Positions 5,224 through 54,576 of a DNA stretch of 64,000 nt are shown one piece after another. The stretch's first letter is position 1. Each line of letters starts with the position of its first letter. Source of the stretch: Pelosinus fermentans JBW45 (GTDB lineage Bacteria; Bacillota; Negativicutes; DSM-13327); assembly GCF_000271665.2 (NCBI RefSeq), contig NZ_CP010978.1, positions 3,936,501 to 4,000,500 on the forward strand, in the 5' to 3' direction. The notes beneath the pieces were generated by a model, which was not told the origin of the DNA, ran no database searches, and was given only the letters and a program-made list of their open reading frames with translations. Made by a program: the position numbers and the translations under genes.

Positions 5224-5309
5224 AAGCACGCATAATATGACTATATGCCATAACGAAATCGCCCTCCCCATCACTCGTGGGTTGTTGCGCACTCGCACAA
5301 CGTGGTGAT

Positions 5310-5480
5310 TGTAAAACAGGCAGTTCTCCTGGCTCCGGGTCATTACTCATCTGTTCCTTCTCAGGCTTACGCCTAATGGCACTACATACAGATTCACTCG
5401 CCGATACAGTTGCGGGACAGCTTTGGCATCGCACCAAATTCTCTCTTAGGCCTTGCGGCACCTGTTTCATCAATATTGGA
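5310..5480 (-). promoter_or_regulatory. Cobalamin (B12) riboswitch
   Basis: The minus strand carries the canonical B12 aptamer signatures in order: ACAGGTGCCGC, then GGTGCGATGCC, the core CTGTCCCGCAACTGTA, GTAAGCCTGAGA and the B12 box AGCCAGGAGAACTGCC. The outer P1 stem pairs AAACAGG (near 5466) with CCTGTTT (near 5314). A promoter lies just upstream and two terminators lie downstream. By established knowledge such elements repress B12 or cobalt uptake genes when adenosylcobalamin is plentiful; here the controlled gene is the TonB receptor and, by read-through, the Nik-like ABC genes. Confidence 0.95.
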
Positions 5481-51102: not shown

Positions 51103-51132
51103 TTGACAGATGCCTGTACTATCTGTTACAAT
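51103..51132 (+). promoter_or_regulatory. Promoter of the T-box operon
   Basis: TTGACA (51103-51108) and TACAAT (51127-51132) are 18 bases apart, just before the T-box leader. Confidence 0.8.
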
Positions 51133-51139
51133 ACGTTAA

Positions 51140-51446
51140 AATACATATTTATTATCGATGAACAGGAAGAGTACACAATACACTAAGGGTTACAGCGAGC
51201 CAATGGCAGTGGAAGTTTGGCACTACTCGGTATGTGGAATGGGCCTGGGAGATACAGTCTGATCCGTAATGTACGGGGTAGGTGCTGTCGGGATTCTTCC
51301 GCCGTTATCAGGAAGCAGATATCGGACTGTATTTTATCCTGTATCTTGTAAAGCTGAGCTTTTTTCAAAAGCTAATCAGGGTGGCACCGCGAGTTAACTC
51401 CTCGTCCCTATATATGCACATGCATGTATAGAGACGAGGTTTTTTA
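51140..51446 (+). promoter_or_regulatory. T-box leader with Trp (TGG) specifier
   Basis: Stem I begins with GAAGAGTAC and contains AGCGAGCC and GGAAGTTTGG. The specifier loop reads GTGGAATGGGCCTGGGAG, giving TGG at 51240-51242, the tryptophan codon. The T-box sequence is AGGGTGGCACCGCG (51378-51391), and a terminator (CCTCGTC with GACGAGG, then TTTTTT) ends at 51446. By established T-box logic, uncharged tRNA-Trp should relieve termination and turn on the transporter downstream. Confidence 0.9.
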
Positions 51447-51473
51447 TTTTAAAAATGAAGGAGTGCGATTACG

Positions 51474-52043
51474 ATGGAATTAGAAAAAAATGAATCAGAA
51501 TTAACCATCCATGATAAAAATAAAGGCGGTCGCTATCGCTGGGTTACGATTACAACCTTACTTTTGGCTATTGGTGCTATTTTGCATTTAGTCAGTCCAA
51601 ATATTGGCGGCGTAACTCCCAACTGGACCATTGCCATGTATTGTATTGCTATTAATTTAACTAAACCTACCTTTAAACAATCTTTTGGTATCGGTCTAGT
51701 TGCTGCGGCCATTAATATACCAACTTCTAAGTCCGCTTTTCCTTATGGCAACCTATTAAGTGAGCCCATTGGTGCTATTATATGTACATTGCTTGTCTGC
51801 CACACTTTTAATATGACATTAGGTAAGCTCAACATTAAGCCTGCCGTAACAGGATTTATCAGCACCGTGGCTAGCGGTATGACATTCATAACCATACTTA
51901 AGGTCGTACTTTCCCTACCTTTATCTGTGTATCTATACGCTATGATACCTGTCGTATTTACAGTAGCTGCTGCTAATGCGGCCATCACACAAATCCTCTA
52001 TTTCCCAGCCAAAAAATTATTTGACTTGAAAGGTGATCAATAA
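51474..52043 (+). CDS. trpP: ECF transporter S component, TrpP (tryptophan) family
   Basis: This membrane substrate-binding subunit of 189 residues has five to six hydrophobic segments. LLLAIGAILHLVSPNIGGVTPNW and the following GLVAAAINIPTSKSAFPYGN align by eye with B. subtilis TrpP (YhaG; AIGAVLHSV, then TTAFPAGQIPN). The first 20 residues are a charged cytoplasmic tail not seen in YhaG. ATG at 51474 follows AAGGAG. It is the first gene behind a tryptophan-type T-box and directly ahead of the two ATPases and T component of an ECF module, so tryptophan import is strongly suggested. Confidence 0.85.
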   Translation: MELEKNESELTIHDKNKGGRYRWVTITTLLLAIGAILHLVSPNIGGVTPNWTIAMYCIAINLTKPTFKQSFGIGLVAAAINIPTSKSAFPYGNLLSEPIGAIICTLLVCHTFNMTLGKLNIKPAVTGFISTVASGMTFITILKVVLSLPLSVYLYAMIPVVFTVAAANAAITQILYFPAKKLFDLKGDQ

Positions 52044-52906
52044 TGCCAGCCATAGCCCTGCAAAACTTCAGTTACGCCTACAATCATCCCAAAAAGGTTC
52101 TTGACAACATAACGATATCCATTGAGAAAGGATCCTTTTCTGTTATATTAGGTCCAAGCGGGGCAGGAAAAACAACACTTTGTCTAGCAGTAGCAGGAGC
52201 CGTTCCCCACTACTTTGGCGGCAGCTCTGCTGGGAAGGTCTATGTAGCTGGAATTCATACACAAGAATCTTCTATGCAGCAATTGGCACTCACAGTTGGT
52301 ACTGTTTTACAAGATTATGAAACTCAATTAGTGACCATGACTGTAGAAGAAGAAGTTGCTTTCAGTCTTGAAAACATGGGGATTGTTCCCGAAGAAATTA
52401 CACAAAGAGTCGAAGAGGTACTCGCCAAAGTTGGTTTGACAGGTTATGAAAAACAAGCCGTTACGGATTTATCCGGAGGGCAGAAACAACGCTTGGTCCT
52501 TGCCAGCGTTCTGGCAACCAATCCAAAAATACTTGTTCTGGACGAACCAACTTCCGCCCTAGACCCTGAAGGAACTTACTCATTATATAAACTCCTCAGT
52601 GACTTAAATCAAGAGCATGGTATCACAATACTGGTAGTCGAGCATGATATTGCCACCGTTCTTCCCTATGCAGATCAATTTATTCTATTAGAAAACGGTC
52701 AATTGATTTTGAATGGCACTCCTGAAAGTGTGCTCAGCTTCATGGCAAAAAAACAAATTTTTGCAGAAGCGATACCGCCCCTATGGCAGTTAAAGCTCAT
52801 GATAGAAGAGCTTGCAACAAGGCAATTTGCCTCTTGGCATACAGAGGAAGAAGCCATCATACAGTTGGGCAAAGCCCTGGACGAGGAGGCCCGCAAAAAT
52901 GCTTGA
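52043..52906 (+). CDS. ECF transporter ATP-binding protein, A1 type
   Basis: This energy-coupling ATPase of 287 residues has Walker A GPSGAGKTT, a Q-loop in GTVLQDYETQLVTM, the signature LSGGQKQRLVL, Walker B ILVLDEPTSALD and the switch histidine in VVEHDIATV. The Q-helix following the Q-loop is typical of ECF ATPases. Its ATG overlaps the stop of the S-component gene (TAATG), indicating translational coupling. With the A2 ATPase and T protein it powers the TrpP-type S component. Confidence 0.94.
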   Translation: MPAIALQNFSYAYNHPKKVLDNITISIEKGSFSVILGPSGAGKTTLCLAVAGAVPHYFGGSSAGKVYVAGIHTQESSMQQLALTVGTVLQDYETQLVTMTVEEEVAFSLENMGIVPEEITQRVEEVLAKVGLTGYEKQAVTDLSGGQKQRLVLASVLATNPKILVLDEPTSALDPEGTYSLYKLLSDLNQEHGITILVVEHDIATVLPYADQFILLENGQLILNGTPESVLSFMAKKQIFAEAIPPLWQLKLMIEELATRQFASWHTEEEAIIQLGKALDEEARKNA

Positions 52907-53744
52907 ACTAAAAAATGTTTACTTCTCCTATAAAGCACAATCTCACGATATCCATGATGTTTCTTTAAGGGTAAATCCAGGAGAATTCTTGGCCATCGTT
53001 GGACGCAACGGTAGCGGTAAAACCACTCTGACTCGTCTGATGATGACATTAAAAAAACCAACGAAAGGTGAGCTCTTTTTTCAAGGAAATAGTTTAGCAA
53101 ACGCGACTCCCGCCAAAATGGCACATCACATTGGTTATGTTTTTCAAAATCCCGACCGTCAAATCTTTCATGATACAGTAGCGGAAGAAGTAGCCTACGG
53201 CCCCAAGCAAATAGGCTGTACTCCAGAACAAATCCAGACTTTCGTTACCCAAGCACTAGAAGTCACCGGACTCTCTCATTTAGCTGCTACTTATCCTCTT
53301 TCCCTATCCAAAGGACAAAAGCAACGCCTTACCATTGCCTCGGCTTTGGCTATGCAGCCTAAAATACTGATTCTGGATGAACCTACTAGCGGCCAGGATG
53401 CTAGGGAACGTGACCAATTGTTGCAATTGTTATTAAAACTGCATCAACAAGGTACTACTATATTGTTAGTCACTCATGATATGGAATTCTTGTCTTCCTG
53501 TGCCCAAAGGGCTATCGTCATGAAAAAAGGGCAAAAAGTATTCGATGGTACTGTAGCTGAATTGTTCCATGATACGAACCAACTAACAGACTGGGGCCTA
53601 ATCGAGCCAGCTGCCCTAAAGATCTCCCGCCAGCTTGCTTCTTTCCAAATATCGCAGACGACTTCCATCACACAACTAGGCAATCAAATTGCAAATCTTC
53701 TAAGGAGGAATAATGACCATGCAGAAAATAGCCCCCATCACTAA
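52899..53744 (+). CDS. ECF transporter ATP-binding protein, A2 type
   Basis: This second ATPase has 281 residues from ATG at 52899, which follows GAGGAGGC and overlaps the A1 stop by eight bases; the frame is open upstream but that part lies inside A1. Walker A is GRNGSGKTT, the Q-loop lies in IGYVFQNPDRQIFHDTV, Walker B is ILILDEPTSGQD, and the switch histidine is in VTHDMEF. The signature motif reads LSKGQKQR instead of LSGGQ, a variant that may make this site less active, as seen in asymmetric heterodimeric ABC ATPases. Confidence 0.94.
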   Translation: MLELKNVYFSYKAQSHDIHDVSLRVNPGEFLAIVGRNGSGKTTLTRLMMTLKKPTKGELFFQGNSLANATPAKMAHHIGYVFQNPDRQIFHDTVAEEVAYGPKQIGCTPEQIQTFVTQALEVTGLSHLAATYPLSLSKGQKQRLTIASALAMQPKILILDEPTSGQDARERDQLLQLLLKLHQQGTTILLVTHDMEFLSSCAQRAIVMKKGQKVFDGTVAELFHDTNQLTDWGLIEPAALKISRQLASFQISQTTSITQLGNQIANLLRRNNDHAENSPHH

Positions 53745-54393
53745 ATTAGCGTTGACAATCTTTGTTACTATATGGTCAATTGTATTACAATCCCTTCCTG
53801 CCTTAACAGCACTTATTGTTTGCCAATTAATTCTTCTGGTTATCGCGAAAGTTGGATCAAGTATTTATAAGGGGATTGCCAGCTTATTTGTCTTTGCTGC
53901 CATCTTAGCTGGCATGCAGTACGCCATAAATAATGATATAATGCTTGCCGCCATTACTGCCAGCAAGATGATTGCCATGACTCTCGTCTTCTTCATTTTA
54001 TTGGCGACCACAAGAATGCAGGACTTGTCGGCAGCTTTAGTTCTGCAATGCCACATTCCTTATGAATATGCATTTATGCTAACAGCAGCGCTGCGGTTCA
54101 TCCCGGATTTTTTAGCAGAGAGCAAAGCCATCCAAGAAGCACAAGCTTGCCGGGGTTATTCCCCCCAAGGCAATGTACTGCAGCGTTTCTTCTCCTACAT
54201 GGCGGTTATCAAACCTCTTGTTCTTAAAGCGGTTACAAAATCAGAAACAATGGCACTCAGCTTAGAATTGCGAGGTTTTGGCAGCCGAAAAACACGAAGT
54301 TTTAAGAATAATGTCACCCTCGCCTTGCAAGACTACGCAATGCTGCTTTCGATGATCCTATTCACCTCATACCTTGTGATACAAATCTACTAA
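53713..54393 (+). CDS. ECF transporter T component
   Basis: This transmembrane scaffold of 226 residues links the S component to the ATPases. It has about five hydrophobic segments and the two coupling motifs in cytoplasmic helices, AQACRGYSPQGN and LELRGFGSRKTR, which are the family's ARG-type signatures. ATG at 53713 follows AAGGAGG and overlaps the A2 gene by 32 bases. A dedicated T and A pair for a tryptophan S component is unusual, since most Firmicutes share one module among several S components. Confidence 0.92.
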   Translation: MTMQKIAPITKLALTIFVTIWSIVLQSLPALTALIVCQLILLVIAKVGSSIYKGIASLFVFAAILAGMQYAINNDIMLAAITASKMIAMTLVFFILLATTRMQDLSAALVLQCHIPYEYAFMLTAALRFIPDFLAESKAIQEAQACRGYSPQGNVLQRFFSYMAVIKPLVLKAVTKSETMALSLELRGFGSRKTRSFKNNVTLALQDYAMLLSMILFTSYLVIQIY

Positions 54394-54523: not shown

Positions 54524-54576
54524 AAATAGCCAGTGTGAAACCTAGTTTACAAGGTTTCACACTGGCTATTTTCTCA
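54524..54576. terminator. Bidirectional terminator between ECF operon and HD gene
   Basis: AAATAGCCAGTGTGAAACCT pairs with its complement around a 7-base loop, followed by TTTT. Confidence 0.85.

Follow-up and report, generated by a model that had tools for sequence, protein, structure and literature searches.

Energy-coupling factor (ECF) transporters whose module is dedicated to a single S component are known as group I (excerpts of PMC7755397). TrpP (YhaG), annotated among the ECF-class transporters of Bacillus subtilis (excerpts of PMC12733254), is described as the only known tryptophan importer of this bacterium, where trpP is under TRAP control (available sections of PMC13170310). Moreover, control by a Trp T-box is recorded for other transporters (available sections of PMC2494555 and PMC9382623); the table of PMC2494555 places ATP-binding cassette (ABC) and NSS systems under Trp, and the words cobalt and yhaG are absent from that paper. 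Here we describe an operon of Pelosinus fermentans JBW45, a member of the class Negativicutes, found at positions 51103-54393 (+) of a stretch of 64,000 nucleotides (hereafter the window; NZ_CP010978.1, positions 3,936,501 to 4,000,500) in a genome of 5.38 Mb present as one contig. A promoter, a T-box leader and a terminator are followed by overlapping genes for an S component, two ATPases (A1 and A2) and a T component, which probably encode an ECF importer for L-tryptophan of the dedicated type (group I), with its own motor.

The S component of this operon belongs to the same Pfam family (PF17099) as the classic TrpP of B. subtilis and its relatives, whereas the classic members stand alone in 17 of 17 loci and lie beyond a branch with a support of 100, and the window S has its own module. 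Like ECF transporters of groups I and II, the system combines two ABC ATPases and a T component with an S protein predicted to have their fold, but it differs from them in an A2 that lacks LSGGQ, in a signal that is an amino acid, and in having relatives with S welded to A1. With the transporters controlled by a Trp T-box (ABC TrpXYZ and NSS) it shares this mode of control; TrpXYZ uses a soluble binding protein and NSS transporters sodium symport. Rodionov et al. 2009 and Vitreschak et al. 2008 are reported to have treated ECF S components and T-boxes, and may have priority. In the parts available of PMC11109136, PMC13170310, PMC7755397, PMC2494555, PMC3766115, PMC7778990, PMC12733254 and PMC11477304, no TrpP-type S with a dedicated module, no S-A fusion and no unequal ATPases are reported. 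Since TrpP is already annotated as ECF-class (excerpts of PMC12733254), the dedicated motor, and not the ECF link, is the unusual part. The features of the locus, in window coordinates, are the following:

51103-51132, +, promoter of sigma-70 type, TTGACA-18-TACAAT, with TG ahead of the second hexamer (consensus scan, 11/12)
51149-51412, +, T-box leader RF00230 (103 bits, gathering 93, E 1.3e-21)
51240-51242, +, TGG specifier for Trp, a single purine separating it from the stem CCTG (sequence, and spacing in the other T-boxes of the genome)
51378-51391, +, T-box sequence AGGGTGGCACCGCG (sequence)
51382-51385, +, bulge TGGC within the T-box sequence, complementary to the GCCA of tRNA-Trp (sequence, and ends of the tRNA-Trp genes)
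51400-51445, +, intrinsic terminator competing with the antiterminator, stem 51400-51439 followed by T6 (-25.9 kcal/mol, z -8.4)
51474-52043, +, S component, TrpP family PF17099, 189 aa (Pfam 49 bits; AlphaFold model)
52043-52906, +, A1, 287 aa, ATPase of ECF type carrying LSGGQ (ECF ATPase profile matches, motif alignment)
52899-53744, +, A2, ECF-type ATPase with LSKGQ at 53304-53318, start ATG 52899, 281 aa (ECF ATPase profile matches, translation, motif alignment)
53713-54393, +, T component, PF02361, CbiQ-like, 226 aa (Pfam 70 bits, cut-off 25)
54525-54570, +, strong hairpin followed by TTTTC, symmetric, which could serve both strands and is probably the end of the operon (-31.3 kcal/mol, z -10.6)

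A predicted tryptophan T-box ahead of the operon

An initial annotation of the window, made from the letters alone, had proposed a TGG specifier, a T-box sequence and a terminator in front of an S-A1-A2-T operon, and this layout was confirmed by Rfam, by folding, by the overlap of the open reading frames (ORFs) and by Pfam. The genome contains 22 T-box matches, of which 20, the window leader included, were aligned to the model. Nine leaders precede recognised genes (leuA-like CTC, leuS CTC, valS GTA, ilvB ATC, ilvA ATC, ileS ATC, glyQ GGC, serA TCC and trpD TGG), the names being a reading of ORF starts for plus-strand ORFs only, with eight minus-strand leaders (L002, L004, L006, L011, L013, L014, L016 and L020) left out of the comparison, and in each of the nine a single base separates the specifier from the closing stem. 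Under this spacing rule, the window leader reads TGG-G-CCTG, identical to the trp-gene leader L010, which has trpB downstream on its own strand at 2111033. Both tRNA-Trp genes end in GCCA (G73), against TCCA (U73) in the two tRNA-Gly genes seen. The spacing rule, the loop identical to that of the trp leader and the TGGC bulge, which matches tRNA-Trp and not tRNA-Gly, thus support TGG as a Trp specifier, as initially annotated.

The TGGG of the leader stands after GAA, so that GGG can also be read in the next frame, in which case the leader would answer glycine and S would carry something else. The one-base spacing in all nine recognised leaders speaks against this frame, and the TCCA end of tRNA-Gly would need a TGGA bulge, as in the glyQ-like leader L015, whereas the window has TGGC; among 65 TGG leaders of the class, the bulge is TGGC in 49, TGGT in 16 and TGGA in none. 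Spacing and bulge together rule out the glycine specifier, and we give this possibility next to no credence.

With a tryptophan specifier, uncharged tRNA-Trp would pair through its CCA anticodon with TGG and through its GCCA end with the bulge TGGC; the antiterminator would then form and the S-A1-A2-T operon would be transcribed. The operon would thereby be switched on when tryptophan-charged tRNA runs low.

A divergent member of the TrpP family

The window S passes the Pfam TrpP model (PF17099) with 49 bits against a cut-off of 27.2, and TrpP is the only S family found for it by Pfam even at E≤10. At this level, the search for another S family added just Integrase_1 and DUF1240, both below cut-off and discarded. 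NCBIfam models gave no match for S, and no sequence relatives were found in the PDB at E≤10. Among named relatives, S is closest in identity to those of Pelosinus propionicus (99%) and of a metagenome-assembled genome of Pelosinus fermentans (98%).

An AlphaFold model of S, obtained from 14 aligned relatives, reached a best mean pLDDT (predicted local distance difference test) of 76.5, with the other four models at 68 to 40.3. Its best VIA match is an ECF-PanT chain (Z 15.8 over 173 residues), and rows 1-13 (Z 15.8-11.2) are all ECF transporter entries, followed by MreD in row 14; the matches from row 23 on (such as complex I subunits and particulate methane monooxygenase) were disregarded, their helical arrangements being common ones. 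Foldseek alone gave no match at E≤0.001, the best being TmRibU with an E of 0.085. The predicted model has the ECF S-component fold. The docking motif of S helix 1, which we take to follow the formula AxxxA, is absent in its literal form: the window S has A32-I-G34-A35 at this site, and the class rows keep A32 in 97% and G34 in 98%. A docking motif of S components is mentioned in the sections available of PMC11109136.

A tree of 132 S domains, built by a quick method with Shimodaira-Hasegawa-like approximate likelihood ratio test (SH-aLRT) support only and carrying a warning that long branches meet, places 17 classic rows across a long branch (support 100) from 115 rows of module-type S and of the stand-alone S of one family code, f23. 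Because it falls on the opposite side of this branch, the window S is a divergent PF17099 member and not a classic TrpP. The TrpP-like S of the initial annotation therefore holds at the level of the Pfam family, with no other S family reported by Pfam, but S sits on a deep branch apart from the classic proteins. At 18 conserved class positions, for example A32, G34, P42, G46, P90, N93, T131, S134, G135 and N168, the class residue is shared by 70% or more of the 17 classic members.

A probably dedicated module in the Negativicutes

TrpP matches were found in 169 of 300 genomes of the class (63 of 97 genera) and in 111 of 398 genomes of the phylum, with bimodal scores. The comparison covers 97 class loci, namely that of the window and 96 others chosen by hand among the matches listed so as to cover family codes. 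These 96 come from 91 of the 169 genomes; the set is non-random and includes near-identical genomes. An A-A-T module lies near S in 86 of these 97 loci; the remaining 11 correspond to nine stand-alone S genes of f23 and two loci cut at contig ends (L093 and L142, the latter, though cut, labelled unfused in the tree). At the 17 classic TrpP loci, chosen from the high-scoring end, the module is found in 0/17 and S stands alone in 17/17, with a TGG T-box in 4/17. The dedicated module pointed out initially is thus supported as a distinction from classic TrpP, but it is the usual arrangement in the class and not a one-off.

A TGG T-box was detected by pattern before S or before the first gene of the operon in 72 of the 97 class loci and in 26 of 28 family codes, a union of 65/97 counted upstream of S and seven from a stricter count upstream of the first gene (which missed L123 and L150), with two S loci each assigned to one leader in L085 and L086. 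Outside the Negativicutes, the 23 module-type loci (L198-L220) all have A-A-T, and none has a TGG T-box. T-box-like cores without a TGG specifier occur in L215, L217 and L219, and Rfam, run on 16 other loci of this set in search of a regulator that might name their substrate, returned a single element, TwoAYGGAY, which lies some 3 kb ahead of S in L205. On present evidence, these 23 loci are not to be called tryptophan transporters. One class locus (L148, f19) falls among their rows in the S tree.

S and A1 are joined in one open frame in 31 of the 97 class loci, in eight family codes. The fusions of f2, f5 and f11 have 424-427 aa and almost no linker, and those of f4, f8, f25, f28 and f35 have 486-552 aa; Pfam finds both domains in the four fusions tested, and the S tree requires at least two changes of fusion state. 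These proteins would be informative because a welded S cannot leave its motor. L085 and L086 (f4 g78) each have, in tandem under one TGG T-box, two S-A1 fusions with A2 and T between them, so that two welded carriers apparently share one A2 and one T.

This last arrangement bears on whether S could be a group II component that works on a shared module, with the adjacent module being accessory or serving other S proteins too. Such a reading can draw on the two f4 g78 fusions around one A2 and T, on the f23 S genes with no adjacent module, and on an A-A-T cluster of the shared type (L145) elsewhere in the window's genome, beside genes read as rpoA and rpsD. It is countered by the overlap of the S, A1, A2 and T genes, by the presence of A-A-T next to S in 86 of 97 loci and by the covalent S-A1 fusion in 31, and we consider it quite improbable. 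Adjacency and fusion suggest that the module may serve one S only, but in f4 g78 a pair of fusions flanks a single A2 and T.

Two other elements were noticed. A further ECF cluster of the same genome (L144, around 4044463) comprises T, a double ATPase of 530 aa and an S-like protein of 202 aa, and precedes a gene read as a TonB-type receptor. The window also contains a cobalamin riboswitch at 5302-5480 (-), with 109.6 bits.

Two unequal ATPases

The best profile matches of A1 and A2 are ECF ATPase models, both below the equivalog cut-offs. Across an alignment of 106 A1/A2 pairs, some of them near-copies, with motifs read from its columns, LSGGQ is present in A1 in 106/106 and in A2 in 0/106, and so the weaker ATP site hinted at by the LSKGQ of A2 in the initial annotation proved a sound suggestion. 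A2 keeps the Q-loop Gln, the Walker B Glu and the H-loop His in 106/106 each. In A1, the Q-loop Gln is kept in 18/53 unfused class loci, 0/31 fused and 13/22 others, the Walker B Glu in 53/53, 29/31 and 22/22, and the H-loop His in 50/53, 28/31 and 1/22, this last residue being replaced in 21 of the 22 aligned module-type loci from outside the Negativicutes. The window pair stands at the mild end of this asymmetry, with the A2 signature alone altered among the compared motifs. Both ATPases of the shared-type A-A-T cluster have LSGGQ.

As ABC dimers are arranged head-to-tail, this asymmetry of motifs would result in one canonical and one partly degenerate ATP site. By its motifs, the canonical site is predicted to combine the nucleotide-binding residues of A2 with the LSGGQ of A1, whereas the other, with A1 residues and the altered A2 signature, is probably partly degenerate and mainly regulatory, and hydrolysis would be unequal. 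In the T component, the motifs ACRGY and ELRGF, presumably involved in coupling, keep their middle Arg in 107/108 and 89/108 aligned proteins, respectively.

A tentative proposal, which we hold to be somewhat doubtful, is that this lineage has dropped the release and exchange of S, with a dedicated S that is welded to A1 in eight family codes, a motor with one canonical ATP site beside a degenerate one, and a cycle in which toppling would take place tethered.

Tryptophan or an aryl acid

TrpA is absent from 26 of the 300 class genomes, and S is carried by 16 of them, 13 of the 20 named trpA-less genomes and three of the six inferred by absence (G192, G207, G208, G233, G248 and G253). Eleven trpA-less carriers of S were tested, G192 and G207 among them, each at least 95% complete (95-99%), and neither TrpB nor the alpha subunit of indolepyruvate oxidoreductase (IOR) passed the cut-off in any of the 11. 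At the loci fetched from seven of these genomes, S is fused to A1 and accompanied by A2, T and a TGG T-box in 7/7. The retention of S in 11 trpA-less genomes with no TrpB or IOR alpha over cut-off favours tryptophan itself as the substrate, which S would bind in the membrane, working with its own A1-A2-T motor, a motor with one canonical ATP site and another that may be partly degenerate. One of the 11 genomes, G119, has a decayed trpB fragment with eight stops (G119:C16:23101-23385) and retains the importer.

The importer might instead take up a precursor of tryptophan or a product of salvage, for example indoleacetate or a different aryl acid, and the T-box would then serve the synthesis of tryptophan by salvage. 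In five of the nine stand-alone f23 loci and in three of three f26 loci, an S under a TGG T-box has a phenylacetate-CoA-ligase-like gene immediately downstream or overlapping it:

L152, L154, L156, L162 and L163 (f23), S with TGG T-box and phenylacetate-CoA-ligase-like gene
L118-L120 (f26), S with TGG T-box and phenylacetate-CoA-ligase-like gene (in L119 and L120, the ligase ORF as listed starts further upstream in the same frame)

The best models of two ligase proteins tested are PaaK, with 511-559 bits and below the equivalog cut-offs. Moreover, IOR alpha passes the cut-off in G110, G146, G059 and the window's genome (second copy 578 bits), and reaches 571-574 bits in G054 and G086. The pairing of S with the ligase hints at a salvage of tryptophan from aryl acids in the f23 and f26 branches. 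However, the ligase is lacking at four of the nine f23 loci and in the operon of the window, the f23 genome G049 has the ligase with no IOR alpha match above 77 bits, and the stand-alone S proteins of f23 form a separate clade (SH-aLRT 98). Together with the 11 trpA-less genomes, these data make an aryl acid an unlikely substrate for the importer.

Weighing the evidence

Several points count against a dedicated tryptophan importer under T-box control. The window S has only 49 bits to TrpP and is separated from classic TrpP by a very long branch, so that its substrate is not transferable by homology alone. A TGG T-box was not seen in 25 of the 97 class loci (f11 4/4, f19 1/1, f15 14/19 and f25 6/8), and Rfam at gathering level, applied to 17 class loci mostly chosen where the pattern found nothing near S, gave T-boxes in L081 only and none in the other 16, including the pattern hit L125. 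In the leader of the window, the isolated Stem I and antiterminator pieces fold no better than shuffles (z +1.8 and z 0.06, respectively), promoter-like sites in the region are fewer than in shuffles (3 vs 7.8, consensus scan), and the same scan missed both the leader terminator and the hairpin downstream of the T gene, which rest on fold energies. As for the substrate, weak TrpB hits are present in four of the 11 genomes besides that of the decayed fragment, and partial or weak IOR alpha hits in 10 of the 11 tested; the argument from auxotrophs assumes that there is no other tryptophan route and that the genomes are complete to 95-99%. Finally, the sister S clade of f23 stands alone, partly beside the PaaK-like ligase, and the window's genome also has a shared-type A-A-T cluster.

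Implications

If the dedicated tryptophan importer is the right reading, a branch of the TrpP family would have its own source of energy. A tryptophan importer would be named for much of the class, given TrpP matches in 169 of 300 genomes, which suggests how the trp-lacking Negativicutes may feed. In addition, the S-A1 fusions would offer natural constructs for asking whether S must leave the motor to reload, and the inequality kept between A1 and A2 would make each ATP site separately testable.

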